From: Terriglobia bacterium | GTDB lineage: Bacteria > Acidobacteriota > Terriglobia > Acidiferrales > UBA7541 | Assembly (NCBI GenBank): GCA_023512135.1 | Contig: JAIMAG010000002.1 | Coordinates: 124,001 to 188,000, forward strand | Direction: 5' to 3' | DNA: 64,000 nucleotides | In this document: piece by piece, positions 28,605 to 42,828 of the stretch | How positions within the stretch are numbered: position 1 is the first letter of the stretch | Layout of the letters: the number at the start of each line of letters is the position of its first letter | Program-made: the position numbers and the translations under genes | Notes under the pieces: model-generated | Database searches by the model: none | What the model saw: the letters and a program-made list of their open reading frames with translations, nothing else | Told to the model about the DNA's origin: nothing

Positions 28605-31600
28605 CTATTCGCTCCCCCCGGTGCTGGCTCCCGTGGCGCGCGGCGAACGGGAAATCAACAGCCGCTGTTCTGCTGGTGTCATCAGGAACATGTACCGCAC
28701 CAGCAATTCGGCGTGGTCACCACGGTAGTTGCGCAGCGACGCCGGCAGCGGGCCGGCAAAAACCCACCGATCCCCTTCGCGCCGGAACAATCCGGACGGC
28801 ATGGCCGTGCCCGGAATCATCCGGGCCGGGTCGAGCAGCCAGCGCTGTGTCCAGGGCGGCCGCAGTCGCTCGCCGGCGAGCAGGAAATTCGGTGCCGTCG
28901 CGTTGCGGTCGTGCGCCGGATCGCCGGTGGCGTGGCAACGCAGGCACGGCGCGGCCGGATGCGTGAACAGGTCCCGCGCCATCGTGCGTTCCGCTTCCGT
29001 CAGCGGCTGGATCACCGGCGGGATGAAAGGACGCTCCTGTGCGGAGAGCGCTTCGAAGAAGCGCACCAGTTTGCGAATTTCGTTGTCCGATAGATAGAAC
29101 GTCGGCATGCGAATGTCGAGGTAATTGCGCACGCCGTTGCGGTGAATATCCGTTTCGCTGAGGGCCGGGTTTTCCAGGAAGCGCGCCAGCCAGCGGGGAT
29201 TCAGCCGTGCACCGGCCCCGAACAGAGGGGGCGGAAGTTTGTCGGCGTTGGGGCCCTGGTACTGTGGCAGGTCCTGCAGGGCCGAGCGCTGCCCAACGCG
29301 AATCTGGTGACAACCCATGCAGTTGTACTTGGTGATGATCCACCAACCATCCTGAATGTCCTTGCGCGCGCCTTCGGGACGATAGAGCATGTCGTTCGGC
29401 ACCTGCGGATCGACGCTGCCGAGCAGGAACGTCGTCAAGGCATTGATGTCTGCCGGGGTCAGGTTCGGCTTGGGCATGCGCAGCCGGTCGCGCGGATCCG
29501 GTTTGTATTTGCCTTGATCGAAGATGGCCGGGTTGGCCAGCTTTTGTTCGAAGAAACCTTTGTGGTCATACCACTTCCCGCGCGGAGAAGGTGATCCGTC
29601 GGGCAGGATGCCGCGCTTGGCGTTGTGGGTGAGCAGGGCGAAATCCAGCCGGTCCACCGGCTTGCTGCCCTCGTTGGTCAGCTCGGTGCCGATGCGGCCC
29701 TCTTCTTCGAGCGTGGCAATTTCATGGCAGCCCGCGCAGCCGTAAAATTTCACCAGTTCCCTGCCCCGTTCACGCAGATTCGGATCGTCTATGTACGGTG
29801 CGGGCGGATAGTTCGCGTCGGAACGCCGCAGCGTGATCAGATAGCTGGCGATATCCCGCGCCTCCTGCCAGGTCAAGCGCAGGCTGGGCATCACCGTGGG
29901 CAGCATCACGACCAGTTCGTGCTTGCCGTCCGGCGAGCGGGAATTTTTCAGATCGAACACGAACGGTTTGCCGTGCCTGGCGTAGTCCTCCGGGCCCAGG
30001 TCCTTTTTGGCGATCGGGTCGTAGGGGCGTGTGCGTTGGCGCGGGTTGTAGATCCAGCGGACCAGGTAGTCGTAGTTTGCTTTTTCGCCCACCCGGCTCA
30101 AGTTGGCTGCGAAGTCTCCGCCGATTTTGTTCGCGCCTTCGCCGATCGAATGACAGCCGAGACAGCCCCGCGTCTCGAACAATCGCTTGCCGCGCGCCGG
30201 ATCTCCCCGAGGCTGCTTTTCGAGCGGCCCGGGCAGTCCCATCTGCCAGATGAACGCGGAGATGGCCTGGATTTCGCTCTCTTCCAGGCGGAATTGCGGC
30301 ATTTTCGTGTCGGGACGGAATTCGTGCGTATTGGCCAGCCAGTACGGAATCCATTCTTTCTTCAGCTTGACGCGCACCTCTTTCAGGCTCGGCCCGACTT
30401 TCTTCTCTTCCCGCATCAGGCTGACCGTGCGCTGCTGGAGCTGTTCGATTTCTGCATCGAGCTGGCTCATCACCACGGGCAGGCTGGCGGCGCGTTCGTT
30501 CAACTGCCGAGCGACTTCGAGCGGCGTGGCGGGATCGTCGGCACGCCGCTGCAGGCGGGCGATTTCCTGTTCGTACTCGCGCTTCTGCTGCTCGAGCTGA
30601 CGGATCCGCTGCCGTGCGCTCAGCAACTGCTCGGCTTCATTGTCGAAACCTTCGAAGCGGTGACACCCCACACAGCCGCGCTCGCGGTACAGCTCTTTGC
30701 CGCGGTTCAGCACCGGCGCATAGTCCAGCACCATGTCCTGGGCATGGCACATCTGGCAGCCCGCTTCGAAGTTTTCGCGATAGTAGAGCGGCCAGAGCCA
30801 GTACTTGTGACGTCCATGGCCCTTGATCACGCTGGAGGTGGCCCGGCCGTTGCCACCATGGCAGGGCGAGCAGCCGATCCGTTCGAGCGCTTTGGCCGGA
30901 TCGCGGTCGGGATCGTGCAGCCGCAGCAACTCGATATTCGGATGGCTGCTGAACGGCGCATCGGGATTCCCTTCCAGGTTCAAATCGGCCTTGGTCAGGG
31001 TCAGATTCGGTGGCACCAGGGCAAGGTCCATGCCGATGTGGCAGGACTGGCAGCGATCCACCAAGCCGGCACTTTCGTTGTGGATCTGGCGGATACGAAC
31101 GTCCAGGTTGTTCACGGCGCGGAGCAGGCCTTGTAGCTGCTGGCCCGTCAGGCCGGCCAGCTTCTCGGAAAAGTAGGACTCCAGTTGCCGCCGCAGGGCA
31201 TCGGCTTCGGCGAGCACGGCGGCACGCTCGGCGACCAGGGCCGCTTTGCGGTCTTTCAAGCGATTGAATTCCCGCTCCAAGTCGGTGTAGCTGAGCTGAG
31301 CCTGTTCTGTGCCGTCGCCATGCAGGCCGGGCAAGGAAAGCGAATAGGTTTGCTGCTTAGCCTGTTCGACTTCACGGAGCCGCGACTGCCGGTCATCCGC
31401 ACTGGCGATTTCCAGCTGGTAGACCAGGGCTGCGACCCGACCCCGGGCCTCCTGAAAGACAGGGGTCAGCACGCCCAGCCGGCGGTTGATGCGCGCAATT
31501 TCTGTATCAATTTCGCTCAGCCGGGGAGCGACGGCAGCTTCTGCCGCCTTCCACTGGGCTTCCAGCTTCTGGTATTCCGGAGAATTGCGGATGGACTGTT

Positions 31601-31808
31601 CGGCCTGCTGTTGCTTGGGAATTTCCCGCTGCAGATAACTGGAATAGGCCTCGATGAAGCGCTTCTGGTAGGAACGCCAGGGACGCAGCCCGTACATTTC
31701 GTCGTACAGAGCCCACGCAAGCGAAACAATCAGCAGGAAAGACCAGAGCAGCAGGTGAAAGCTCAGCGATTTGCTGGTGATTGGGTCTTGGGCGGGTTGT
31801 GCGGGCAC
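28605..31808 (-). CDS. Membrane-anchored octaheme cytochrome c of the bc complex
   Basis: A 1067-residue protein with one N-terminal transmembrane anchor (about 17-36) and a long coiled-coil region. Eight CxxCH heme motifs lie near residues 253, 313, 348, 377, 549, 690, 829 and 954 (CQSCH, CSPCH, CQMCH, CVGCH, CLGCH, CAGCH, CMGCH, CLRCH). A second coiled coil separates hemes four and five. The last four sit in class-I-like cytochrome c modules with downstream Met candidates (MPKPN, MPTFYL, AMPSG). GTG 31808 has AAGGAG nine bases upstream. It is the fourth gene of the Rieske/cytochrome b operon and replaces a simple cytochrome c1. Confidence 0.9.
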   Translation of the reverse strand: MPAQPAQDPITSKSLSFHLLLWSFLLIVSLAWALYDEMYGLRPWRSYQKRFIEAYSSYLQREIPKQQQAEQSIRNSPEYQKLEAQWKAAEAAVAPRLSEIDTEIARINRRLGVLTPVFQEARGRVAALVYQLEIASADDRQSRLREVEQAKQQTYSLSLPGLHGDGTEQAQLSYTDLEREFNRLKDRKAALVAERAAVLAEADALRRQLESYFSEKLAGLTGQQLQGLLRAVNNLDVRIRQIHNESAGLVDRCQSCHIGMDLALVPPNLTLTKADLNLEGNPDAPFSSHPNIELLRLHDPDRDPAKALERIGCSPCHGGNGRATSSVIKGHGRHKYWLWPLYYRENFEAGCQMCHAQDMVLDYAPVLNRGKELYRERGCVGCHRFEGFDNEAEQLLSARQRIRQLEQQKREYEQEIARLQRRADDPATPLEVARQLNERAASLPVVMSQLDAEIEQLQQRTVSLMREEKKVGPSLKEVRVKLKKEWIPYWLANTHEFRPDTKMPQFRLEESEIQAISAFIWQMGLPGPLEKQPRGDPARGKRLFETRGCLGCHSIGEGANKIGGDFAANLSRVGEKANYDYLVRWIYNPRQRTRPYDPIAKKDLGPEDYARHGKPFVFDLKNSRSPDGKHELVVMLPTVMPSLRLTWQEARDIASYLITLRRSDANYPPAPYIDDPNLRERGRELVKFYGCAGCHEIATLEEEGRIGTELTNEGSKPVDRLDFALLTHNAKRGILPDGSPSPRGKWYDHKGFFEQKLANPAIFDQGKYKPDPRDRLRMPKPNLTPADINALTTFLLGSVDPQVPNDMLYRPEGARKDIQDGWWIITKYNCMGCHQIRVGQRSALQDLPQYQGPNADKLPPPLFGAGARLNPRWLARFLENPALSETDIHRNGVRNYLDIRMPTFYLSDNEIRKLVRFFEALSAQERPFIPPVIQPLTEAERTMARDLFTHPAAPCLRCHATGDPAHDRNATAPNFLLAGERLRPPWTQRWLLDPARMIPGTAMPSGLFRREGDRWVFAGPLPASLRNYRGDHAELLVRYMFLMTPAEQRLLISRSPRATGASTGGSE

Positions 31809-31838
31809 CCCTGAGTCTCCTTCGTGTCCCAGAACGTT

Positions 31839-32795
31839 TCAGACGTTAAACCACGGCGTAACCCAGACGTACTTGATGCGAAAGACCAACCGCAGCAGCA
31901 TTTTGATCGGCAGCGCAAGCATCAGGATCAGCAGGATTTGCATCGTGACAATCTGCAGCAGGCTCATGCGGCGGTAGATCTTGCGACTGAACTCGGTGGC
32001 CATACAGATGCGGTGGATCAGGTACGCCGCGCCGGCAAAATACAGCCCGACCACAATGGCGCCGAACACCGTCCAGGCCCAGATGTTCTGGGGCACGATG
32101 TACTTGAAGATCCACCACTCGTGCAGGTTCCGGTTCACCTCAAAGACGAGCCGGTTGTGATCCCAGGTCTGCGTCGGCCAGAACCACATCCAGCCCGGGC
32201 CGCGGATGAATGTGCCGATCACAATCATGATCACCCAGAGCCCGATGAAGCCGACCAGGAACGTCCAGATCGCAAAGCGACGCTGCTTGTAGGTGTAGTA
32301 GCCGTTGCCGAGCGGGTTTTCGTCAATGTACGGGATCACCATCAAACCGATGATGATCAGCGTCGGCATCACCACCCCGGCGATCCAGGGATCGAAATAA
32401 ACCAGCATCTCCTGCAGGCCCAGGAAATACCACGGCGCTTTGGCCGGGTTCATGGTCAGATTCGGATTGGCCGGTTCCTCGAGCGGGGCGTTCAGCGTGA
32501 TGGACCACACGGTCAGAATCACGGTGACGATAATCGCGGCGAGGAACTCCACGCGCATCAGATAAGGCCAGGTGTGCACTTCGCGCGGCCAGCCGGGCTG
32601 CCAGGGATGCACCTTGCGGTGATGGGTCTTGGCCAGTTGCGGGTCTTTTTCCAGTTGTTCAATCAGCCGGTCGGTTTCGAATGCCTGTCGAAACGCATAC
32701 CACGTGTAGAACGGCACCAGAAACAGCAGGGCCACGATCGGCACGTTGTCCGGTGCCGAAACAATCTCCCAGAGCTGGTACCAGTCACCCCACAT
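31839..32795 (-). CDS. Cytochrome b C-terminal half (subunit IV-like) of the bc complex
   Basis: A 318-residue membrane protein equivalent to the C-terminal part of cytochrome b. Transmembrane segments are predicted near 20-38, 84-104, 118-160, 178-205, 240-270 and 285-310. The Qo-site loop reads NPAKAPWYFLGLQEMLVY; the usual PEWY motif, whose Glu takes part in quinol oxidation, is therefore APWY. NPLG-type and PYIDENP segments are conserved. The longer than usual C-terminus carries extra helices. A GAGGAA site precedes ATG 32795. It pairs with the N-terminal half encoded just upstream, as in cytochrome b6f. Confidence 0.88.
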   Translation of the reverse strand: MWGDWYQLWEIVSAPDNVPIVALLFLVPFYTWYAFRQAFETDRLIEQLEKDPQLAKTHHRKVHPWQPGWPREVHTWPYLMRVEFLAAIIVTVILTVWSITLNAPLEEPANPNLTMNPAKAPWYFLGLQEMLVYFDPWIAGVVMPTLIIIGLMVIPYIDENPLGNGYYTYKQRRFAIWTFLVGFIGLWVIMIVIGTFIRGPGWMWFWPTQTWDHNRLVFEVNRNLHEWWIFKYIVPQNIWAWTVFGAIVVGLYFAGAAYLIHRICMATEFSRKIYRRMSLLQIVTMQILLILMLALPIKMLLRLVFRIKYVWVTPWFNV

Positions 32796-32836
32796 GGTTT
32801 CTGCGTTCCTCGCTTCCCCCTGGCGACCTCACGGGG

Positions 32837-33805
32837 CTATTTTGTCTTTTCCCACTCCTTCGTGCCGGCAGGTCGCATAATGACCGGCCGAGGCCCTTTC
32901 TCTTCCTTGATTTCCGATTCCAGCATCACCGGCGCGGGCCCGGAAATGCCGCCGTCTTTGCGCACGCGCCAAAAATGGACGCCCATGAAAATCGCGGCGA
33001 GCACCGGAATGGCAATGCAGTGCCAGATGTAGGCGCGCAGCAGCGCATTGGCATCCACAATCGAGCCCCCGAGTAGCGCAAAGCGCACATCGTTGTACGG
33101 GGTCATGCCCAACTGCGGACCAAACGGGCCCTCATGTCCGAGCAGGGGTGTGGCGCGCGCCATGTTCGTGCCCACCGTCACCGCCCAGAACCCCAACTGG
33201 TCGTCGGGCAGCAAGTAACCGGTGAACGAGAGCAGCATGGTCAGCACCATCAGAACCACGCCCACACACCAGTTGAATTCCCGCGGCCGCTTGTACGATC
33301 CGGTCATAAACACCCGGAACATGTGCAGCCATACCGCGATGATCATCAGGTGGGCTGCCCAGCGGTGCATGTTGCGCAGCAGCTTGCCGAACGGAACGTC
33401 GTGTTCGAGATACAGGATGTCCCGGAAGGCCTGCACCTTCGTCGGGTGGTAGTAAAACATCAGCAGAATGCCGGTGAAGGTCAGGACAATGAAGAGGTAG
33501 AACGTAATCCCACCCATTCCCCAGGTGAAGCTGTAGCGAACGGCATCGCGGTTCACCTTGGCGGGGTGGAGGTGAAAGAAGACATTCGTCAACACGCTCA
33601 GGGCACGGTTCCGCGGCGTGTCGTCGTGCTTGACGCGGAAGATCGAACGCCAGAGCTGTGTTTTTTCCGGTTCCTTCAGCGTCTGCAGGTCTTCCTTGGC
33701 CTTCTCGAGGATGGTTTGCGTCGCCTGCTTTGTCTTTTCGCGGACCGATTCCAGCAGGCCAACTCCGGCGCTCTGCCCTTCTTTGCGCCCGTTTTCCTCT
33801 GCCAT
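32837..33805 (-). CDS. Cytochrome b N-terminal half (b6-like) of the bc complex
   Basis: A 322-residue protein carrying both b hemes. Histidine pairs are visible: NMHRWAAHLMIIAVWLH has two His 14 apart, and the WHC...GVH pair later is separated by 14 residues, a b6-type spacing. An extended soluble N-terminus of about 90 residues precedes the first helix (WGMGGITFYLFIVLTFTG). The Qo-site region SFTGYLLPDDQLGFWAVTVG is conserved. About 45 charged residues follow the last helix. It sits between the Rieske and cytochrome b C-half genes. Together they form a quinol:cytochrome c oxidoreductase core. Confidence 0.93.
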   Translation of the reverse strand: MAEENGRKEGQSAGVGLLESVREKTKQATQTILEKAKEDLQTLKEPEKTQLWRSIFRVKHDDTPRNRALSVLTNVFFHLHPAKVNRDAVRYSFTWGMGGITFYLFIVLTFTGILLMFYYHPTKVQAFRDILYLEHDVPFGKLLRNMHRWAAHLMIIAVWLHMFRVFMTGSYKRPREFNWCVGVVLMVLTMLLSFTGYLLPDDQLGFWAVTVGTNMARATPLLGHEGPFGPQLGMTPYNDVRFALLGGSIVDANALLRAYIWHCIAIPVLAAIFMGVHFWRVRKDGGISGPAPVMLESEIKEEKGPRPVIMRPAGTKEWEKTK

Positions 33806-33849
33806 TCCCCTGCCCTCCGCGAATTGCCGCTTATCTCTGCGGCCAGCCG

Positions 33850-34437
33850 CTAGACCACCACATACGCCCCGGGATTGTCGAATTCATCGCGTCCCATGAT
33901 GGGGTCGCGGATGTACAGCCGGCTGGTGTCCACAATGATTTGTCCGGTCGCATCCAGTTCCACGTGGGCCCGGTCCATGGGACGCGGCGCCGGCCCCTCG
34001 AAGTTGATGCCTTCGGAATCGAACCCGCTGCCGTGGCACGGACATTTGAATTTCCGTTCGCTCTCTTTCCAATCCGGAGTGCAGCCCAGGTGCGTGCACT
34101 TCGCAAAAATCACGAACAGGCGACCCGGGTCCCGCACGACCCAGATGCGATGGCTCTGTTGAAAACGCGTGTCCACACCGATGGTGAAGTCGGACGGGTA
34201 GCCAATGGAGAAAACCGCTTTGGGCTCGAACAAGGCACGGGGGAAGAAGAAACGCAGGAACATCAGAAAATTCACTCCCAGATACCCCCACACACTGGCC
34301 CACACCAGGCGACGCCGCGTCAGCAGGACCTGGGAGGTGTCCTCGGCTTCCCCTTGCTTGGCGGTTGGCTTTTGGCCGGCTGTAGCAGCTCCGCCTGGCG
34401 CCGGGGGCGCAGGCTTCTGCTCAGTCTGCTCCGACAT
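33850..34437 (-). CDS. Rieske [2Fe-2S] protein of the bc complex
   Basis: A 195-residue Rieske protein that accepts electrons from quinol at the Qo site. A Pro/Ala-rich N-terminus (1-38) precedes one transmembrane anchor (about 44-66). The cluster-binding boxes are CTHLGC (C114, H116, C119) and CPCHGSGF (C132, C134, H135), including the disulfide Cys pair. ATG 34437 has AGGA about eight bases upstream. It is the first gene of its operon, with a near-consensus promoter 70-100 bases upstream. Confidence 0.95.
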   Translation of the reverse strand: MSEQTEQKPAPPAPGGAATAGQKPTAKQGEAEDTSQVLLTRRRLVWASVWGYLGVNFLMFLRFFFPRALFEPKAVFSIGYPSDFTIGVDTRFQQSHRIWVVRDPGRLFVIFAKCTHLGCTPDWKESERKFKCPCHGSGFDSEGINFEGPAPRPMDRAHVELDATGQIIVDTSRLYIRDPIMGRDEFDNPGAYVVV

Positions 34438-34508: not shown

Positions 34509-34537
34509 TTTATATTCGTGGCCGCCAGAACTGTCAA
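34509..34537 (-). promoter_or_regulatory. Near-consensus sigma-70 promoter of the bc-complex operon
   Basis: Minus strand: TTGACA (34537-34532), exactly 17 bases, then TATAAA (34514-34509). Eleven of twelve positions match consensus. The -35 overlaps the hemH stop codon (34536-34534). Predicted transcription start is near 34502, giving a leader of about 65 bases. Confidence 0.7.
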
Positions 34538-35556
34538 GCCGAATCCGCAGCACGTTCACGGCCAGTCGCACCTGTCGGTACAGGCGCCAGTCCGAGCGCG
34601 CCGAGTACCAGTTCCGTCAAAGCGGCGATGAAGGTCGGCGAATCGTTCAGCGCGGGCATCACCGCAAAGTTCCGGATTCCCACGGCTTCGGCCTCCTCCC
34701 GCGCTTCGATGTTCAGCTCGTGCAGGGTTTCGATGTGCTCCGAGACAAAAGAAATTGGAATCACCAGCACCGAAGTCACCCCGTCCGCGCCCAGACGGGC
34801 AATCGTATCGTCCAGCGAAGGTTCCAGCCATTGCTGGCGACCAACTTTGCTCTGGTAGCAGAGCACATGCGGATTGTTCCAACCGCCATGCTGCATCACC
34901 CGTTGTACCGTTTCTTCCACCTGCTGCTGGTACGGGTCGCCGCGCTCGATGAAGCTGACCGGCAGCCCGTGCGCGCTGAACACAAAATGAACCTTCTCCG
35001 GTTCAGCAAACTGCGCCAGGCTTGTGTGGATGTTTTCGACAAAAGCTTCGATCAGCTTGGGGTGATCGTGAAACGAGCGTACCGTGTGTACCGGACAGCC
35101 GGCATTGGAAAACCGCCGCTGCCACTCCTTCAGGCTGCTGCCTGTGGTCGAGAACGAAAACTGTGGATAGAGCGGCAGAAGCACAATTTCCTCTGGACCG
35201 TATTCATTCAGTGCTCGCACCGCATCTGCGGTGAAGGGTTTCCAGTACCGCATGGCCACCACCACCCGGGCGTCCATGTGCGCGGAAAGTTCGCGTTCCA
35301 GCGCCTGTGCCTGCCGCTCGGTCAGCTCCCGGATGGGAGACCCGCCACCGATCTCGGCGTAGGCCTTGGCGACTTTTTTCGCGCGCCGCATGGAGATCCA
35401 CTTCGCCAGCGGTCGCCGCGCCAGCCAACCGAACGGCAGGTCCAGAATGTCCGGGTCGCAGAACAGGTTGTAGAGAAAGGGTTCGACGGCCTCCAGGCGA
35501 TCCGGGCCGCCCAGTTGGAACAGCACCACACCGATGCGTTTCCGTTTGTTGTCCAT
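34534..35556 (-). CDS. hemH: Ferrochelatase
   Basis: A 340-residue enzyme that inserts iron into protoporphyrin IX. The catalytic-site segments are visible: FVFSAHGLPVSFIERGDPY (about 188-206, with the essential His) and PISFVSEHIETLHELNIE (about 260-278). It is the last gene of the ccm operon, following ccmD by 29 bases. Placing heme synthesis directly beside heme export is unusual but functionally sensible. No other heme-biosynthesis gene is in the window. Confidence 0.94.
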   Translation of the reverse strand: MDNKRKRIGVVLFQLGGPDRLEAVEPFLYNLFCDPDILDLPFGWLARRPLAKWISMRRAKKVAKAYAEIGGGSPIRELTERQAQALERELSAHMDARVVVAMRYWKPFTADAVRALNEYGPEEIVLLPLYPQFSFSTTGSSLKEWQRRFSNAGCPVHTVRSFHDHPKLIEAFVENIHTSLAQFAEPEKVHFVFSAHGLPVSFIERGDPYQQQVEETVQRVMQHGGWNNPHVLCYQSKVGRQQWLEPSLDDTIARLGADGVTSVLVIPISFVSEHIETLHELNIEAREEAEAVGIRNFAVMPALNDSPTFIAALTELVLGALGLAPVPTGATGRERAADSA

Positions 35557-35585: not shown

Positions 35586-35723
35586 CTATTTTGCGAGCGT
35601 CTCCCTGATCCGTTCGACCTCTTCCCGCAGGCGTGCCATGCCGCGGGCGATGCGAATCTCAAAAAGGAAGAACACGGCCCAAGCCACCAGGTACGCGGCC
35701 AACAGGCTTTCGAAGTTTTTCAT
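35586..35723 (-). CDS. ccmD: CcmD-like small membrane protein
   Basis: A 45-residue gene. The product starts MKNFESLLAAYLVAWAVFFL, a single transmembrane helix, and continues with a basic-acidic cytoplasmic helix (EIRIARGMARLREEVERIRE). This is the size, topology and position of CcmD, which stabilises the CcmC-CcmE heme complex. ATG 35723 has GAGGAG nine bases upstream. It lies between ccmC and hemH in the operon. Confidence 0.75.
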   Translation of the reverse strand: MKNFESLLAAYLVAWAVFFLFEIRIARGMARLREEVERIRETLAK

Positions 35724-35738
35724 CGCTGCGGATTCTCC

Positions 35739-36449
35739 TCAAAAACGATTTCCCGGATTTGTGCTGAGGCGCAGCCGCAGCTCTTCCAGTTCGCTGCGCA
35801 ACTGCTCCAGCCGGAACCGCTGTCGCAGCAGGAGCACAAGCAGCGCCACCATCGCTGTCAAACTCACCAGCAGCACCCACCACATCGTCGGGTCCAGCCC
35901 GGAACCTTCCCCGCCGGCAATCACCGGCGCCGGATGCTGTGTGCGCCACCAGCGGATCGACATGTACACGATGGGCACATCCAGGAACGCAAAGATGCCA
36001 AACACAGCCGAGGTCACCGCCCTTCGCGCGGGATCTTCTACCAGGCTGCGCAGCAGCAGATAACTGACGTACAGCAGCCAGAGCACAAAGGTCGACGTCA
36101 GTCGCGCATCCCACGTCCACCAGATGCCCCAGACCGGCTTGGCCCAGATAGGGCCAGTGAGCAACACAACTGTGCAGAACGCAAGGCCTACCTCAGCGGC
36201 CGAGACTGCCAGCTGATCCCACACTTGCCGGCGGCGCACCAGATAGCTCAGGTTGGCAACGAACACAATGAAAAACGCCAAGAATGCTGTCCAGGCGCTG
36301 GCGACGTGGAAGTAAAAAATGCGCTGGATTTCGCCCATGGTGCGTTCGGTTGGCGCCAGAAAGAATATGGCGTAGCCGGCTATGGCCATCAGCGCCGCGA
36401 CGGCCAGCGTGCCAACCAGTCCGGAGCGAGAGGTTCCGCTTCTGGGCAT
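35739..36449 (-). CDS. ccmC: Heme handling protein CcmC
   Basis: A 236-residue membrane protein that loads heme onto CcmE. Six transmembrane segments are predicted. The tryptophan-rich WWD motif is WGIWWTWDARLTS (about 107-119), flanked by the heme-ligand His near 48 (FYFHVASAW) and another near 172. ATG 36449 lies one base after the ccmB stop; GGAAG is eight bases upstream. The C-terminus ends in a Leu/Arg/Glu-rich cytoplasmic helix (LEQLRSELEELRLRLS), longer than in E. coli CcmC. Confidence 0.92.
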   Translation of the reverse strand: MPRSGTSRSGLVGTLAVAALMAIAGYAIFFLAPTERTMGEIQRIFYFHVASAWTAFLAFFIVFVANLSYLVRRRQVWDQLAVSAAEVGLAFCTVVLLTGPIWAKPVWGIWWTWDARLTSTFVLWLLYVSYLLLRSLVEDPARRAVTSAVFGIFAFLDVPIVYMSIRWWRTQHPAPVIAGGEGSGLDPTMWWVLLVSLTAMVALLVLLLRQRFRLEQLRSELEELRLRLSTNPGNRF

Positions 36450-36450
36450 G

Positions 36451-37146
36451 CTAGTCTTCCAGCAGGTATTCGAACAGCAGCGCACTGGCTGCCAGATAGA
36501 TCACATCAAAGCCGATCAGAAATTTCATGGCCGTCCAGTCCATCGCCGGCTCCTGAACGAGCAGGCTGGCGGTAGCGGTCACGCTGGCAATCAGCACAGG
36601 CACGAGCAGCGGGAGCAGCAGCAGCGGCAGCAGCAACTCACGCATGCGCGCCTGCGCCCCGATGGCCGCAAAGACGGTGCCGGTGGTCACCATCCCGGCC
36701 GTGCCCAGCGCGAGCACAACGAGAATTTCTCCCAGCACAGGCAGAATCGTCACATCGTACAGCGCAGCGAAAACCGGCAACAGCAGCAGCTCCGCCACAG
36801 TCAGAAACACAAAGCTGGCCAGGGCCTTCCCCAGAAAAATAGAAAATGGCGCGATGGGCGCCAGCCGCAACGCGGACAGGGTATCGTTATTCTGTTCCCG
36901 CACAAACGACGGTTGCAGCATCAACGATCCGGCAAAGAGCAACGCCAGCCAGAGCAGTCCGGGCCCGTAGCGGCGAGATTCCTCGCGCGTGGGTTCGAAG
37001 GTGAAGCTGAACAGCACCACCACCAGCAGTACGAACACCAGCGTGGTGTGGAGCAGCTCGCGGGTGCGCAGCTCGGTGCGCAGTTCCTTGGCAAAAATCC
37101 AATAAGTTGCCGTGCCGATCCCCATCGAACCATCCGGCTCTTTCAT
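36451..37146 (-). CDS. ccmB: Heme exporter membrane protein CcmB
   Basis: A 231-residue permease with six predicted transmembrane segments. Typical CcmB regions are AKELRTELRTRELLHTTLVF near the N-terminus, SFVREQNNDTLSALRLAP (about 85-102) and the mid-protein GTVFAAIGAQARMRELLLPL. ATG 37146 overlaps the ccmA stop (ATGA). With CcmA it forms the ABC transporter whose ATPase releases heme-loaded CcmE. Confidence 0.93.
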   Translation of the reverse strand: MKEPDGSMGIGTATYWIFAKELRTELRTRELLHTTLVFVLLVVVLFSFTFEPTREESRRYGPGLLWLALLFAGSLMLQPSFVREQNNDTLSALRLAPIAPFSIFLGKALASFVFLTVAELLLLPVFAALYDVTILPVLGEILVVLALGTAGMVTTGTVFAAIGAQARMRELLLPLLLLPLLVPVLIASVTATASLLVQEPAMDWTAMKFLIGFDVIYLAASALLFEYLLED

Positions 37147-37865
37147 TGCGGCGCAGAGGGATGTGGCGCTGCATCGTCCACCACGGTGCCGGCCGCCAGG
37201 GTCACGCACCGGGTGGCCAGCTCCGCCAAAGCTTCCCGGCTGTGCGTGCTGACGACGATGGTCTTGCCCTGCTGCTTCAGCCGCGCCAGGGTTCGACCCA
37301 GCCAGGCCAGCCCGTTCTGGTCGAGGCCGGTGGTGGGCTCATCGAGCAGAATCAGGGCTGGATTGTGAAGCAGCGCACGCGCGATCGAAAGCCGCTGCCG
37401 CATTCCGCGGGAATAGGTGCGCACCAGATCGTTGCGCCGAGGCCACAGCTCGGTGGCCTGCAGCCATTCGTTCAGCAAGGATTCTGACTCGATGCCGTAC
37501 AGACGAGCAAAAAACCGGAGATTCTCGGCGCCGGTCAACTCGTCGTAGAGCAATGTCTGGTGTCCCAGATAGCCAATGGTGCGCGCGCTCTCGGGGACTC
37601 CCGGGGCCGTTCCTTCCCACACGACCTGGCCCGAGGTGGGCTGGCAGAGCCGGGCGGCAACCCGCAGCAGAGTCGTCTTTCCGCACCCATTTGGTCCGAG
37701 CAGGAGAACAAATTCCCCGGCACGAATCTGCAAAGAAACCTCGCGCAGGGCGTAGAGCAGGCCGTAGCGCTTCGAGACCCGTTCCAGATGCAAACCCACG
37801 CTCGTCGTGTCGGCAGGGGCGGGCCCGGCGGTAGCGGCTGTGATACTCTCCGCGGACACGGGCAA
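37143..37865 (-). CDS. ccmA: Heme exporter ATP-binding protein CcmA
   Basis: A 240-residue ABC ATPase. Walker A is GPNGCGKTT, the signature is TYSRGMRQRLSIARAL and Walker B is LILLDEPTTGLD. Subfamily and context (ccmB follows with ATGA overlap) support CcmA. About 22 Ala/Thr-rich residues precede the ATPase core. The start is TTG 37865 with AAGGG five bases upstream; GTG 37859 is equally possible. Confidence 0.9.
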   Translation of the reverse strand: MPVSAESITAATAGPAPADTTSVGLHLERVSKRYGLLYALREVSLQIRAGEFVLLLGPNGCGKTTLLRVAARLCQPTSGQVVWEGTAPGVPESARTIGYLGHQTLLYDELTGAENLRFFARLYGIESESLLNEWLQATELWPRRNDLVRTYSRGMRQRLSIARALLHNPALILLDEPTTGLDQNGLAWLGRTLARLKQQGKTIVVSTHSREALAELATRCVTLAAGTVVDDAAPHPSAPQ

Positions 37866-37867
37866 CT

Positions 37868-39052
37868 CTACCCTTTCAGAAAGCCGCGCAACCGCTCCTG
37901 GGCGAGGCGGTATTCGCGGTCAAACTCTTCGGCGGAGATGGTCCCTGCCTGTCGCCGCAGCTCGAGACGAAACAACGTTTCTTTGATCTCCTCGAGATTC
38001 TGGCGCACCTGTCCCTCGACCTCGGCTTGGACACGCACGGCGTGCGCCGTCGGCTTGCGCAACAGGTAAAACGCCCCCAGCGTGAACAGTGCCGCAAATC
38101 CAACGATCAGAATCCATTTCAGGCTGTCCAACCGCGGAGGCAACATTGTCACCATGCCCGTTGGCGTTTGCTCGGCCGTGGCCGGTGCCGCTTCAGTGCC
38201 GCTGGCCTGGGGGAGTGCAGCCGTGCCCTGCAGATGGATTTCAAAAGTAGTGCCCCGCGCCAGACCCTCGCGCGCATACAGGTTGTAACCCTGCTCGCTG
38301 CCGGCCGGTTGCAGTCCGGTTCCTGCCAGCTGTACCGCCGTCGGCGCAGCCAGCAGCACGCGCGTCGTTTCGTAAATTGAAGAAAGTCTCAGCGTGGTTT
38401 GTCCTTCCGGGTACGGGAGCTGATAGGAGATGCGAATTCCGTTCTCGCCCGGACGAATAGGGAACGCAACGGCGTGCCGCCCTCCACCCTTTTCCATCGT
38501 GCCCTGCACCACCGGCATCCCGGCCGGCCCCCAGGCCGAAACCTGGGAAAGTTCGGCTCCGGTCGGCAGCACAAATTCAAACGTGCCGTCCGGGCGGTAA
38601 AACGTGAGCGGCGGCTGGGTCGTGTTTTCCAGGATAAACTCTTCGCCAATCAGCAGGGTCGGCCCATTGGGCTGAAAGACGAGGAATCGCGATGCCACCC
38701 GAAAGGCCCGGGCATCCGCCGTCGCATCGTAGATTTCGATGTCGGCCGTTGCCCGTCCGGGCGGAATGTTTTCGTGATAGTTGACGTTCTGATGCTGGAC
38801 GCGCACCAGCATCGGCGTAGTGCCAATCGCCGGGTGCGAGAACTGGAACCGCCCCTGGGAATCGGTGCGGGTCGTGGCAACAGCCTGCATGCCGCCCTGC
38901 AGTTCCAGTAACACGACCTCCTGATTCGCGACGGCGGTGCCCCGGGTGGCATTTCGCACGGTGCCACTCAGGGTGCCGGCCTGGGTGGCCAGCGCTCCCC
39001 AGCCACACAGCCAGACACAGATAGCAACCCGCAGTGGTGTGCTCATGCTCAC
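37868..39052 (-). CDS. Exported membrane protein with carboxypeptidase-regulatory-like domain and CcmI-like tail
   Basis: A 394-residue protein of no named family. A signal peptide (about 5-25) is followed by a carboxypeptidase-regulatory-like sandwich (about 26-110, TLSGTVRNATRGTAVANQEV and DSQGRFQFSHPAIG). A second beta-rich domain follows (about 125-290). One transmembrane helix (about 313-333) leads to a cytoplasmic helical tail. The tail (EEIKETLFRLELRRQAGTIS, then AEEFDREYRLAQERL) resembles the helical module at the start of CcmI. GTG 39052 overlaps the preceding stop (GTGA); ATG 39046 is possible. It sits inside the ccm operon before ccmA. Confidence 0.65.
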   Translation of the reverse strand: MSMSTPLRVAICVWLCGWGALATQAGTLSGTVRNATRGTAVANQEVVLLELQGGMQAVATTRTDSQGRFQFSHPAIGTTPMLVRVQHQNVNYHENIPPGRATADIEIYDATADARAFRVASRFLVFQPNGPTLLIGEEFILENTTQPPLTFYRPDGTFEFVLPTGAELSQVSAWGPAGMPVVQGTMEKGGGRHAVAFPIRPGENGIRISYQLPYPEGQTTLRLSSIYETTRVLLAAPTAVQLAGTGLQPAGSEQGYNLYAREGLARGTTFEIHLQGTAALPQASGTEAAPATAEQTPTGMVTMLPPRLDSLKWILIVGFAALFTLGAFYLLRKPTAHAVRVQAEVEGQVRQNLEEIKETLFRLELRRQAGTISAEEFDREYRLAQERLRGFLKG

Positions 39053-39402
39053 GGCGAAGAAGTTCTCTCCGATACCCTGGCTTTTGCAGCCGCCTGGCGA
39101 ACTGCCGGGGAAACGACCCCGCCGGTCAGCAGTTCGATCTCGGCAATGACCTGCGCTGCTTCAGCTTCCAACGCTTCTTTCATCTGTTCGAAATCTCTAT
39201 CTGAATATTTGCCGGCCCGGTACTCGAATTTCAGGTCGCGCAGATTTTCATAGATCGTGTCGCGTCGCTCCAGCAACTGATCCAATCGAGTCCGATGGGG
39301 CAGCGCGTCTTCCGGCGTGTGCTCCACGCGAAACACAAAGACCAGCACGGCGCCCGTCAGCGCCACACACGCCAGAGCAATTGCCACGCTGGCAGCGTCC
39401 AT
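39049..39402 (-). CDS. Small CcmI-like membrane/coiled-coil protein
   Basis: A 117-residue protein with one N-terminal transmembrane helix (about 5-25) and a cytoplasmic helical hairpin. The helical part (RRDTIYENLRDLKFEYRAGK, then YSDRDFEQMKEALEAEAAQV) follows the pattern of the CcmI/CycH membrane module, in which a Gly-containing turn splits two helices. The periplasmic TPR domain of full CcmI is absent. ATG 39402 lies 31 bases after the ccmH stop. Likely a heme-ligation accessory; the function is inferred from context. Confidence 0.62.
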   Translation of the reverse strand: MDAASVAIALACVALTGAVLVFVFRVEHTPEDALPHRTRLDQLLERRDTIYENLRDLKFEYRAGKYSDRDFEQMKEALEAEAAQVIAEIELLTGGVVSPAVRQAAAKARVSERTSSP

Positions 39403-39433
39403 GACCGGTTTTTCCCTCGACTGCGCGCTCGTG

Positions 39434-39943
39434 CTAGAAATCCGCTTCTGTTTCCTGCGCGGCCTGCTGACGTGCGCGCGCCAGTGCTTCTGGCGAAACC
39501 GCAGGCCTGCTGGCCACCGGGGCAGTTCGTGCCGCGCGCCAGCGCCAAAGCACTACGATGAGCACACCGATGCCGGCCATCCACGCCAGGGGCGGCATCA
39601 GCCACGCCCAGCGGCTCACCCCGGTGGTGGGCGGCTCCGCCAGAACGCGCAGGCCATACTCCTGCACAAACGACTGCAGGATCAGGTCGTCGGGCTCGTT
39701 CCGCGCCACTCGTTCATCCAGCTTGTTCAGCATCTCCGTCGAAACGGTGCACCCGATGTGGTTGCATTCCCCCAAAATCTGGTTGCAACCGCACAGACAC
39801 ATCATTTTTTTCGACAGAGCCTTGGCCTGCTCGGACCGCTGCGCCTCCACCGCCACGCCGGCCAGCAACAGCAGAGCACCAAGCAGGACTGCCGGACGAA
39901 ACAGCCTGCGAAACAGAACGCGGGACCGGAAAACGTCAGTCAT
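39434..39943 (-). CDS. ccmH: CcmH/CycL-type cytochrome c maturation protein with CxCxC motif
   Basis: About 169 residues. A signal peptide (about 15-35) is followed by a periplasmic CcmH helical domain and a C-terminal transmembrane helix (about 115-137). Canonical CcmH reduces apocytochrome thiols with an LRCxxC motif. Here the region reads MMCLCGCNQILGECNHIGC, giving Cys at 49, 51, 53, 60 and 65: CxCxC without CxxC. The later KLDERVARNEPDDLILQSFV, QEYG is CcmH-like. ATG 39943 is used (AGGA upstream); ATG 39949 is possible. The start overlaps the ccmF end. Confidence 0.85.
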   Translation of the reverse strand: MTDVFRSRVLFRRLFRPAVLLGALLLLAGVAVEAQRSEQAKALSKKMMCLCGCNQILGECNHIGCTVSTEMLNKLDERVARNEPDDLILQSFVQEYGLRVLAEPPTTGVSRWAWLMPPLAWMAGIGVLIVVLWRWRAARTAPVASRPAVSPEALARARQQAAQETEADF

Positions 39944-42005
39944 GTGCATCCTGTGGTCGCGCGGCCGGCACCGGTTGCAGGACCGGCTGGCGGGCCGGCT
40001 CGGCTGTGGTACGAAGAGCGAGCACCGGTTGCCGGTTCGGCAGCAGAGCTATGCCGGTGCCGAGCACCAGCACCACCCCGCCCAACCAGATCCACTTCAC
40101 CAGCGGGTTGACATACGCGTGGATGACCGGCTGGCCCGTTTCCGGACTCGGCCCGGCATAGACCACGTAGAGGTCTTCACGCAGCGTGGAGTAGATGGAA
40201 ACCATCGTGCCGGTCATGCCGCTCGGGTTGTAGCGCCGACGTTCCGGGTAGAGCAACATCACCGATTTGCCATCGCGCAGCACTTCGATCGTGGCCCGTT
40301 CTGCGATATAGTTCGGTCCGGGCCGCTGCGTGAACGTCTGCAGCAGGATCGTGTACCGGCCCAGCTCCATGCTGGTGCCCGGCGTCATTTCCATCTGTTT
40401 GTCCTGATTGAAGGCTGCCCCGGCCAGCCCGATGAAAATCAGCACGATACCGAAATGAACGATGTAGCCGCCGTAGCGGCGCGTGTTCCGCATAGTCAGG
40501 TGCTCGACGGCGCGCAGAAAGCCCATCCCAGTTCGCGCCCGAATCACGCGGGCCCCGCGCACGAATTCGAGAACGATTGTCAGGGCGACGAACACCGACA
40601 GCACAAAGCAAACCAGCGCGTAGAAATCGCGCAGACCCAGCGGATAGGCAACCGCACCGGTCAGCAAGCCGACGGCGAGCGGCCAGCCGAAATTGCGCCG
40701 CAGACTTTCCAGCGACGTTTTCCGCCAGGCGAGCAGCGGCCCCACGCCGGTCAGAAACAGCAGAAATAGCCCGATGGGAATCGTCACCTTGTTGAAGAAC
40801 GGCGGCCCCACGCTGATCTTTGTTCCCTGTACCGCTTCAGAAATCACCGGGAACAGCGTGCCCCACAGCACGGCAAAGCAGGCCGCCAGCAGCACCAGGT
40901 TGTTGAAAAGAAAACTTGATTCCCGCGAAACCAATGAATCGAGTTGATTTTCGCTCTTCAGATAGTCCCGGTTTTTCAGGTACGCCCAGGTGCAGAGGAC
41001 CAGGGTCAACAGCAGGAATCCCAGAAACCAGTGGCCCACGTCCGATTGCGCAAAGGCGTGCACCGAGCTGACCACCCCGCTGCGCGTCAGCATCGTTCCC
41101 AGAATGCACAGCAGGAAGGTGATGAACACCAGCCAAACATTCCAAACCTTCATCATTCCGCGCTTTTCCTGCATCATCACCGAATGCAGGAAGGCTGTGC
41201 CGGTCAGCCAGGGCAGCAGCGAAGCGTTTTCGACCGGGTCCCAGCCCCAGTAGCCGCCCCAGCCGAGCACCGCGTAGGCCCAGTGCGCGCCGAGCAGAAT
41301 TCCCAGACTCTGAAAGCCCCAGGCGATCATGGTCCAGCGTCGCGTGATGTGGATCCACTTCTCGCCCGGGTAACGTCCCAGCAGTGCCGCCAACGCGAAG
41401 GCGAACGGAACCGTAAAACCCACGTATCCCAGGTACAGTGCCGGTGGATGGATCACCATCTCCGGATACTGCAGCAGCGGATTCAGCCCGCGACCGTCCG
41501 GTTGTGTCACCACTTGTCGGCTGCCGTCGGCGGCCACCGTACCCAGGACTTGGAACGGATTGGCTACAAATACATTCAGAATCAGGAAGAACAACTGCAC
41601 GCAGGCCAGCACCACCCCCACATAAGGCATCAGCTCAGGATGCTTGTTCCGGTTGGTCCACAGCACGAAAAACACGTACACGGCCAGCAGCCAGCTCCAG
41701 AACAACAGCGAGCCTTCCTGGCCTGACCACAGTGCCGCAAATTTGTAGAACAGATGCTGATCGCGGCTGCTGTGATTGGCCACGTAAGCCACGGAAAAAT
41801 TGTCGGTCAGAAAGAGAAACACCAGACTGGCGGTGGCGAGAGTAATCAGGACGCAGGCGGCCAGACTGGCCTGATAGGCGCTCCTAGTCAGTAACACCTT
41901 GCGCCCGGCGATGGCGGCAATGCCTGCGGCCACGGCATAGCTAGCGCAGACCAGAGCCAATATCAGAGCATATGATCCAAACAGGTCCACCGTTGCACCG
42001 TACAC
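39936..42005 (-). CDS. ccmF: Cytochrome c heme lyase subunit CcmF
   Basis: A 689-residue membrane protein with about 14-15 transmembrane segments that ligates heme to apocytochrome c. The WWD motif is WGGYWGWDPVENASLLPWL (about 248-266), followed by HSVMMQEKRGMMKVWN. The large periplasmic domain near the C-terminus (about 540-640) is present. GTG 42005 is taken as the start; GTG 41990, closer to the first helix (LFGSYALILALV), is an alternative. The gene lies between ccmE and ccmH. Length is near the usual 640-690. Confidence 0.94.
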   Translation of the reverse strand: MYGATVDLFGSYALILALVCASYAVAAGIAAIAGRKVLLTRSAYQASLAACVLITLATASLVFLFLTDNFSVAYVANHSSRDQHLFYKFAALWSGQEGSLLFWSWLLAVYVFFVLWTNRNKHPELMPYVGVVLACVQLFFLILNVFVANPFQVLGTVAADGSRQVVTQPDGRGLNPLLQYPEMVIHPPALYLGYVGFTVPFAFALAALLGRYPGEKWIHITRRWTMIAWGFQSLGILLGAHWAYAVLGWGGYWGWDPVENASLLPWLTGTAFLHSVMMQEKRGMMKVWNVWLVFITFLLCILGTMLTRSGVVSSVHAFAQSDVGHWFLGFLLLTLVLCTWAYLKNRDYLKSENQLDSLVSRESSFLFNNLVLLAACFAVLWGTLFPVISEAVQGTKISVGPPFFNKVTIPIGLFLLFLTGVGPLLAWRKTSLESLRRNFGWPLAVGLLTGAVAYPLGLRDFYALVCFVLSVFVALTIVLEFVRGARVIRARTGMGFLRAVEHLTMRNTRRYGGYIVHFGIVLIFIGLAGAAFNQDKQMEMTPGTSMELGRYTILLQTFTQRPGPNYIAERATIEVLRDGKSVMLLYPERRRYNPSGMTGTMVSIYSTLREDLYVVYAGPSPETGQPVIHAYVNPLVKWIWLGGVVLVLGTGIALLPNRQPVLALRTTAEPARQPVLQPVPAARPQDAHD

Positions 42006-42011
42006 ACGGAA

Positions 42012-42473
42012 TTATTCCGGCTGCCCGGACGAAGAGCTGCCGGCTGGTGAGGATACGCTGGAACTCGTTGTCGTCGACGGATTCGGCACCGCCTCGTATT
42101 TGGAAGCGCATTTCGCCTGAACGTGGTCGGCAAGAAACCGTCCATCGGGGGCCAGCCGACCTTCGACCAGCGCCTGGGCGCGGTCCACGAAAGTGTCCGG
42201 CAGTGGATTCTGGCCAACGTAGCTGACCGGCAGCGTGTGCCCATCCTGTTCGAGCACAAAATCGACGCGGCCGCGCAGTCTTTCGATGGAGCCCGGTTGA
42301 ACGTCTCCACCCACACGCAAACGGCGCTGAGCCTGAGCACCGCTGAGAGTTTTCAATTCGGCGATGGTGTAGTAGTACGTCTTGCTTTCCGTAACACCGA
42401 CCCACCCGAGCCAGGCCGTTGTGCCCAGGATGACGGTGCCGGCGAGCAGGAATTTTCCTTTCCGCTGTTTCAC
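42012..42473 (-). CDS. ccmE: Heme chaperone CcmE, CxxxY type
   Basis: A 153-residue membrane-anchored periplasmic heme carrier and first gene of the ccm operon. One N-terminal helix (about 8-27) precedes the OB-fold (RRLRVGGDVQPGSIERL, LPVSYVGQNPLPDTFVD, ALVEGRLAPDGRFLADHVQA). The heme-attachment motif is C122-A-S-K-Y126, that is CxxxY. Canonical CcmE uses HxxxY. A Ser/Thr/Pro-rich tail follows. GTG 42473 is preferred because GAGGGGGAGG lies upstream; ATG 42500 lacks a ribosome site. Confidence 0.9.
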   Translation of the reverse strand: MKQRKGKFLLAGTVILGTTAWLGWVGVTESKTYYYTIAELKTLSGAQAQRRLRVGGDVQPGSIERLRGRVDFVLEQDGHTLPVSYVGQNPLPDTFVDRAQALVEGRLAPDGRFLADHVQAKCASKYEAVPNPSTTTSSSVSSPAGSSSSGQPE

Positions 42474-42522
42474 TGCCTCCCCCTCGGGCGCGCCGTCCAT
42501 TGTAACACAAGCGCGCGGCGGC

Positions 42523-42828
42523 TCACCGGCGAGCCAGCTTGTCTTTCAGGCAGCGGCGCAGCTCGTCGCTCAGTGCGGTAATCCGAAGACCCTCGCAGAC
42601 CAGAAACTTGCAGCTGAGCAGCGTGGCCGGGGTGGCGTCGCCGGGAAACTGACACTCCACGCGACAGTACTGGCATTCTTGATTCCAGCAGAAGCGGCCA
42701 TACGGAATCGTCTCCGGGCTGATGAACTGGAAGCAACGAAGCAGGGAGTTTTTTTCCGGAACCCGGAACTTTTTCCCGAGGATGTGGATCTCCACCAGTC
42801 GTTCATAGGGACGGAACGGGTCGGACAT
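42523..42828 (-). CDS. Small Cys-rich protein, possible [2Fe-2S] ferredoxin-like
   Basis: A 101-residue soluble protein. It starts with a short beta hairpin (VEIHILGKKFRVPEKNSLLR) like the N-terminus of plant-type ferredoxin domains. Cysteines follow in RFCWNQECQYCRVEC and later in LLSCKFLVCEGLRI. The pattern C-x4-C-x2-C then a distal C resembles a [2Fe-2S] site (as in formate-dehydrogenase or complex-I type domains), but the fit is imperfect. It lies between ccmE and accA on the same strand. Function unknown. Confidence 0.6.
   Translation of the reverse strand: MSDPFRPYERLVEIHILGKKFRVPEKNSLLRCFQFISPETIPYGRFCWNQECQYCRVECQFPGDATPATLLSCKFLVCEGLRITALSDELRRCLKDKLARR

Follow-up and report, generated by a model that had tools for sequence, protein, structure and literature searches.

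A probable System I* cytochrome c maturation operon with a Cys-type CcmE and a cysteine-cluster CcmH in a Terriglobia bacterium

The window analyzed here, a 64,000-nucleotide stretch of a Terriglobia bacterium genome, carries at 35586-42473 what is probably a complete bacterial System I* operon, ordered ccmE-F-H-I-X-A-B-C-D, in which heme would be attached to CcmE at Cys122 and a five-cysteine cluster in CcmH replaces the usual CxxC pair (Table 1). The combination of a CxxxY CcmE with a CcmH is ordinary for the phylum and has already been described in kind; the part worth following is the two companions of the Cys-type CcmE, namely the cysteine-cluster CcmH and a conserved operon member that we refer to as protein X.

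Table 1. Features of the ccm operon and its immediate neighbors in the window, in order of transcription (profile scores in bits)
Feature	Coordinates	Strand	Evidence or remark
Ferredoxin-like [2Fe-2S] protein, CX4CX2C	42523..42828	-	PF13510, 22.1, just under cut-off 22.8
ccmE, Cys-type heme chaperone	42012..42473	-	GTG start at 42473; in-frame ATG at 42500
CASKY heme-attachment motif, Cys122 (TGC 42108-42110) to Tyr126	42096..42110	-	Codons and alignment
ccmF, cytochrome c synthase subunit	39936..42005	-	PF16327, 238.6; PF01578, 127.7
ccmH, cysteine-cluster type, without LRCxxCQ site	39434..39949	-	PF03918, 63.3
CLCGCNQILGECNHIGC cluster of CcmH, Cys51/53/55/62/67	39749..39799	-	Alignment of 59 Cys-type CcmH
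Short CcmI-like protein, 117 aa, no TPR part	39049..39402	-	Conserved beside ccmH/ccmF
Protein X, unnamed conserved operon member, 394 aa	37868..39052	-	
ccmA, ATPase of heme-release complex	37143..37865	-	TIGR01189, 137.7, cut-off 131.6
ccmB, start uncertain, overlaps ccmA	36451..37209	-	PF03379, 114.7
ccmC, predicted to load heme on CcmE, start uncertain	35739..36485	-	TIGR01191, 140.8, under cut-off 186; PF01578, 109.7
ccmD-like, 45 aa	35586..35723	-	TIGR04391, 17.1, under cut-off 24; directly after ccmC
hemH, ferrochelatase, after ccm genes	34534..35556	-	PF00762, 386.3

The five proteins that mark System I*, CcmA, CcmB, CcmC, CcmE, and CcmF, are all recognized by profile matches. The operon is compact, with ccmF starting 6 nt after ccmE and a packed gene run continuing to hemH. 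The WWD motif of the ccmF product (WGGYWGWDPVENAS) is intact and the ccmC product carries WGIWWTWDARLTS; the short CcmI-like protein has no match in Pfam or NCBIfam, and there is no ccmG within the operon. The [2Fe-2S] ferredoxin-like gene directly precedes ccmE and keeps this position in near relatives. Downstream of the operon (28605-34437) are genes for a Rieske protein, a split cytochrome b, and a cytochrome of 1067 aa that has eight CxxCH motifs, which are likely clients of the ccm operon, and a heme A synthase-type gene also lies after the ccm operon, Rieske, and cytochrome genes.

The ccmE product is a clear member of PF03100 (78.6 bits in a profile search, cut-off 24.6), and it is encoded on the minus strand, as the plus-strand frame over the same interval is broken by an internal stop. 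A GGGGGAGG stretch ∼5 nt upstream makes the GTG a better start than the in-frame ATG; from the GTG the protein has 153 residues with CASKY at 122-126, and from the ATG it has 162 residues with CASKY at 131-135. When the protein is aligned by phmmer with solved CcmE chains (8ce8_E, 1sr3_A, and 1j6q_A), the Cys of CASKY falls on the His of AKHDENY, and the HxxxY motif of canonical System I is thus absent, with CASKY lying over HDENY. The first-pass annotation had given the same interval and GTG start, had read CxxxY for HxxxY from C122 to Y126, and had proposed alignment to CcmE families as a check; all of this holds, with Cys and not a conserved His at the attachment position. Of 197 distinct CcmE loci read in Acidobacteriota, 182 have Cys there, although 78 of the 197 come from a named collection and were retrieved by a pattern that itself includes the Cys. 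This recurrence rules out chance or sequencing error as the origin of the Cys, and a second, His-type CcmE in the same genome is also ruled out, as PF03100 matches nothing but the window's CcmE across the 2.83-Mb genome.

CcmE is present in 242 of 396 genomes of the phylum, and the Cys type is the rule. This conclusion comes from the 119 distinct loci found with the PF03100 profile, which include the window and were chosen to span families, and of which 104 are Cys and 15 are His. The pattern-found loci (80, with 2 dropped as duplicates) are uninformative on this ratio because the pattern demands Cys; their named members are nearly all titled Acidobacteriota, many of them Terriglobia. Across all 197 loci the motifs are CASKY (109), CPSKY (69), CPSRY (2), CPTKY (2), and His-type (15). 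Two weak PF03100 matches (L196 and L197) are excluded as not being CcmE by profile, and the short loci L008-L037 (3.3 kb each) are outside the counts, with refetched ones carrying new numbers. An 18-row CcmE alignment was picked as Cys-type, and the invariance of Cys in it proves nothing.

The sequence and AlphaFold2 (AF2) model of the window's CcmH mark it as a variant of predicted CcmH fold and not as a canonical CcmH. It matches PF03918 (cut-off 25), as do all 59 CcmH proteins in our alignment, yet the canonical LRCxxCQ is absent, with KMMCLCGCNQ in its place, and instead of the CxxC thiol pair of the family there is a cysteine cluster with CxC spacing. The AF2 model (mean pLDDT of 87, and 91-95 around the cysteine cluster) matches 2hl7 (CcmH of Pseudomonas aeruginosa, E 0.013) and 2kw0 (CcmH of E. 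coli, E 0.020) with probability 1.00 each, although these E-values are modest, and it has the three-helix periplasmic fold of the family by these matches. With the CxxC missing, the predicted fold is thus retained while the thiol site has been exchanged. The alignment, composed of the window's CcmH and 58 others from 80 standalone CcmH frames, is divergent (mean column identity of 20%), and no columns other than C51, C53, C55, and C62 are invariant; C67, G54, G99, and P119 are at least 90% conserved. The gaps between the cluster cysteines vary widely (1-1-6-4, 1-2-7-1, 1-2-6-10, and others). The cluster is probably a thiol relay or a metal site.

These CcmH features segregate with the type of CcmE. 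All 103 Cys-type loci with a CcmH in view (37 of them profile-found) lack [RN]CxxC[QN] and carry a cluster that opens with CxC and continues with more cysteines, mostly to a total of five. A CcmH is in view in 14 of the 15 His-type loci, and all 14 combine RCxxCQ (LRCLVCQ, the canonical form, in L206) with a ccmG-like gene no more than 3.5 kb away on the same strand. Among the 182 Cys-type loci only two have a same-strand thioredoxin-fold gene within that distance; in L046 it codes for a TlpA-like lipoprotein, in a genome where another, more complete ccm locus (L264) exists, and in L149 a thioredoxin-like gene lies upstream of the operon. Nine further Cys-type loci have a nearby thioredoxin-fold gene on the opposite strand.

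A CcmH is not universal among Cys-type systems. In a PF03918 search of 77 genomes, mostly chosen for having a CcmE locus without CcmH, 51 have a match somewhere and 26 have none, such that many Cys-type systems evidently manage without CcmH. Forty of these matches were inspected, and 29 are beside or fused with ccmF, all 29 being cysteine-rich, with CxCGCxQxLLECNHVGC as the typical motif of ccmF-adjacent CcmH in split-locus genomes; two others (L296 and L297) are cysteine-rich with ccmF not in view. The remaining nine (L277-L282, L286, L289, and L299) are members of the CcmH family in other Acidobacteriota that carry APCC and stand alone, at a distance from ccmF. Genomes of the main family in the window's class divide their ccm genes between an E-A-B-C locus and an F-H-I-X locus, and a missing CcmH is ruled out there, as it is present with ccmF at the second locus. 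In a further group of Cys-type genomes CcmH gives no match, which parallels the state reported for Desulfovibrio. A single reading frame codes for a CcmF-CcmH fusion in several Acidobacteriota families (L059, L061, L062, L066, and L300).

Protein X is predicted to have beta domains, one membrane segment, and a C-terminal hairpin resembling the short CcmI (hhalign against CcmI-like proteins, 96.8%). It lies beside ccmI or ccmA in 99 of 182 Cys-type loci versus none of the 15 His-type loci. Foldseek pairs its AF2 model (pLDDT of 91), at ∼6 to 11% identity, with beta domains found in ribophorin I and in M1 aminopeptidases, matches that indicate no function.

System I* is the Cys-type CcmE system of archaea and some bacteria (Stevens et al. 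2011, PMC3601427), and in that study CPSKY is given for 25 of 36 examined bacterial genomes and CcmH for about one-third of bacterial Cys-type genomes, such that the absence of CcmH is not characteristic. The first description of System I* has no CcmH, whereas the window has one; given these data, we do not treat its absence as defining. The bacterial Cys-type systems with CcmH share with the window both that protein and the Cys-type CcmE. Desulfovibrio System I* has in common with it a CPSKY-like CcmE motif, the CcmABCF core, and no ccmG in the operon, but the Desulfovibrio operon is described as lacking CcmH (PMC3601427), whereas the window has the cysteine-cluster CcmH, the short CcmI-like protein, and protein X. 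The Ccm system of Methanosarcina acetivorans (CcmABCEF) has CxxxY in CcmE and is described without CcmD and CcmH, unlike the window, which has CcmH and a CcmD-like protein; heme attachment to its CcmE depends on Cys120 (Gupta et al. 2022, PMC9084895). E. coli System I (CcmABCDEFGH) shares the core proteins and the CcmH fold (2kw0) but has a His-type CcmE, a CcmH with LRCxxCQ, and CcmG in the operon, none of which are in the window's operon.

CxC-type CcmH proteins have already been noted in Geoglobus and Ferroglobus, and what is less known is the cysteine-cluster partner of bacterial Cys-type CcmE. The Geoglobus genome paper describes, beside ccmF in three Archaeoglobales, two CcmH proteins that carry LX[S,N]C[E,D,H]C but no LRCxxC (PMC4600277), and another source reports CcmH among archaea only in Ferroglobus (PMC4429474). 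Judged by description, these systems share with the window a Cys-type CcmE, a CxC CcmH without LRCxxC, and an adjoining ccmF, and they differ in being archaeal and in their CcmH motif. In the open-access literature we found no title or abstract describing a bacterial cysteine-rich CcmH motif, apart from the Geoglobus note, and no paper on CcmH or CcmE in Acidobacteria.

The association between CcmE type and CcmH type is strong (Fisher's p = 8e-13, a value that ignores kinship) and may reflect shared ancestry rather than functional coupling. In a CcmF tree (n = 70), 46 of the 50 Cys-type rows, including one from Bacillaceae, are in one set (support of 90) with four apart, and the His-type rows are in two sets. 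The Cys/His label needs only two changes on this tree, which points to a deep split between inherited modules and not to repeated co-evolution.

The genome has other genes for thiol chemistry and cytochrome maturation. TlpA-family proteins and CcdA are encoded outside the window's operon, with CcdA adjoining a TlpA lipoprotein with WCAPC on contig C35, and there are further WCxxC proteins; a CcmG-like donor may therefore exist. A System II is present on contig C34 (L259:8714-11758), with ResB (PF05140, 297.5 bits) and CcsA (PF01578, 177.2 bits) near genes with 10, 9, 5, and 13 CxxCH motifs. Two maturation systems thus coexist in this ∼2.8-Mb genome; no paper on System II in Acidobacteria was found in the open-access literature.

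In the proposed mechanism, CcmABCD would load heme onto CcmE via Cys122. By analogy with studied relatives, the cysteine most likely joins a heme vinyl group as a thioether, Tyr126 is a predicted axial ligand, and CcmABCD would then release the loaded CcmE. By the same analogy, transfer would run through CcmF, which together with CcmH would pass the heme to apocytochrome c, with the nearby 8-CxxCH cytochrome among the likely clients. CcmG and CcmH are described as reducers of apocytochrome thiols (PMC10746174), and the five cysteines of CcmH may serve as a redox relay (or metal site), preparing these thiols without an operon-encoded CcmG. A Cys thioether to heme is expected to be hard to break, and heme release is presented as an open puzzle (PMC3601427); a CcmH that is paired with Cys-type CcmE and never with the usual thiol pair is a candidate for this missing chemistry. 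A bolder version, which we advance tentatively and regard as rather doubtful, is that bacterial Cys-type maturation is a distinct co-inherited machine in which the five-cysteine CcmH and protein X take over from the thiol pair of CcmG/CcmH and from the CcmI of TPR type, and that the cluster in CcmH forms a new kind of redox or metal center giving electrons to apocytochrome thiols and aiding heme release from a CcmE Cys bond that is otherwise stable.

The role of the CcmH cysteines and the nature of the heme bond each have an alternative. The five cysteines could bind a metal, as zinc or an iron-sulfur cluster with a structural or redox-sensing role, leaving reduction of the thiols to a TlpA-family protein fed by CcdA. 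Such a site would fit with four cysteines that are invariant and fall inside a 12-residue stretch, together with a fifth, and the adjoining CcdA and WCAPC TlpA genes, together with the further WCxxC proteins, could provide the reductant; the widely varying cysteine spacing is better suited to thiols than to a fixed metal site, and we know of no CcmH on record with a metal-binding cysteine site. This alternative is a serious one, albeit short of an even chance. It is unlikely, although less so than the alternatives considered below, that Cys122 holds heme by iron coordination only and that CcmE passes it on as a loosely bound ligand. Non-covalent binding of ferric heme via Cys127 is reported for the Cys-type CcmE of D. 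vulgaris in a 2013 review (PMC3884852), and covalency here is therefore not certain, but Desulfovibrio desulfuricans CcmE is reported to bind heme covalently (PMC3601427), and heme stain is lost in the C120A variant of M. acetivorans CcmE (PMC9084895).

The remaining two alternatives concern the operon as a whole. That it is a vestige and that ResB-CcsA matures cytochrome c has in its favor the System II matches beside multiheme cytochrome genes, but it is very improbable, as every ccm gene has an unbroken frame in a compact run, CcmE, CcmF, and CcmC retain their key motifs, close relatives share the operon, and downstream of it comes a cytochrome bc-type cluster that includes the 8-CxxCH cytochrome. 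The first-pass annotation had noted a CcmH-like gene, CcmD, and no CcmG, and had concluded that this is a mixed system. Both genes are indeed present, CcmD as a CcmD-like gene with a score below the profile cut-off, and the absence of CcmG can be upheld for the operon alone, given the TlpA-family proteins and CcdA elsewhere in the genome. The conclusion itself does not stand: Cys-type CcmE with CcmH is documented (PMC3601427) and is the rule in Acidobacteriota, and its CcmH is non-canonical in every Cys-type locus where it is in view. The PF03918 match of CcmH would be consistent with recent joining of a Cys-type CcmE to a canonical CcmF-CcmH apparatus, but the window's CcmH is without the canonical motif, its CcmF groups with Cys-type CcmF on the tree, and CcmE, CcmF, and CcmH travel together, making such an event scarcely credible.

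Outside the phylum, where coverage extends to bacterial plasmid loci and a viral collection, related operons are found on plasmids of Cytobacillus and Metabacillus (Bacillota, Bacillaceae). These have CPSKY and the gene order E-F-H-(short)-(X-like)-A-B-C, in which the X-like gene is assigned by position and alignment without a significant score. Their CcmH has no CxxC and has C-x8-C rather than CxC, and a TlpA gene is at the end of the locus, after ccmC/ccmD. Four Pseudomonadota plasmid loci have a His-type CcmE, with CxxCQ in all three that have CcmH in view, and plasmid matches in Iamia and Deinococcus are to CcmF, with no CcmE in view. Four contigs of the viral collection (L301-L304) code for a Cys-type CcmE, with CcmH not in view, and may be misfiled bacterial DNA.
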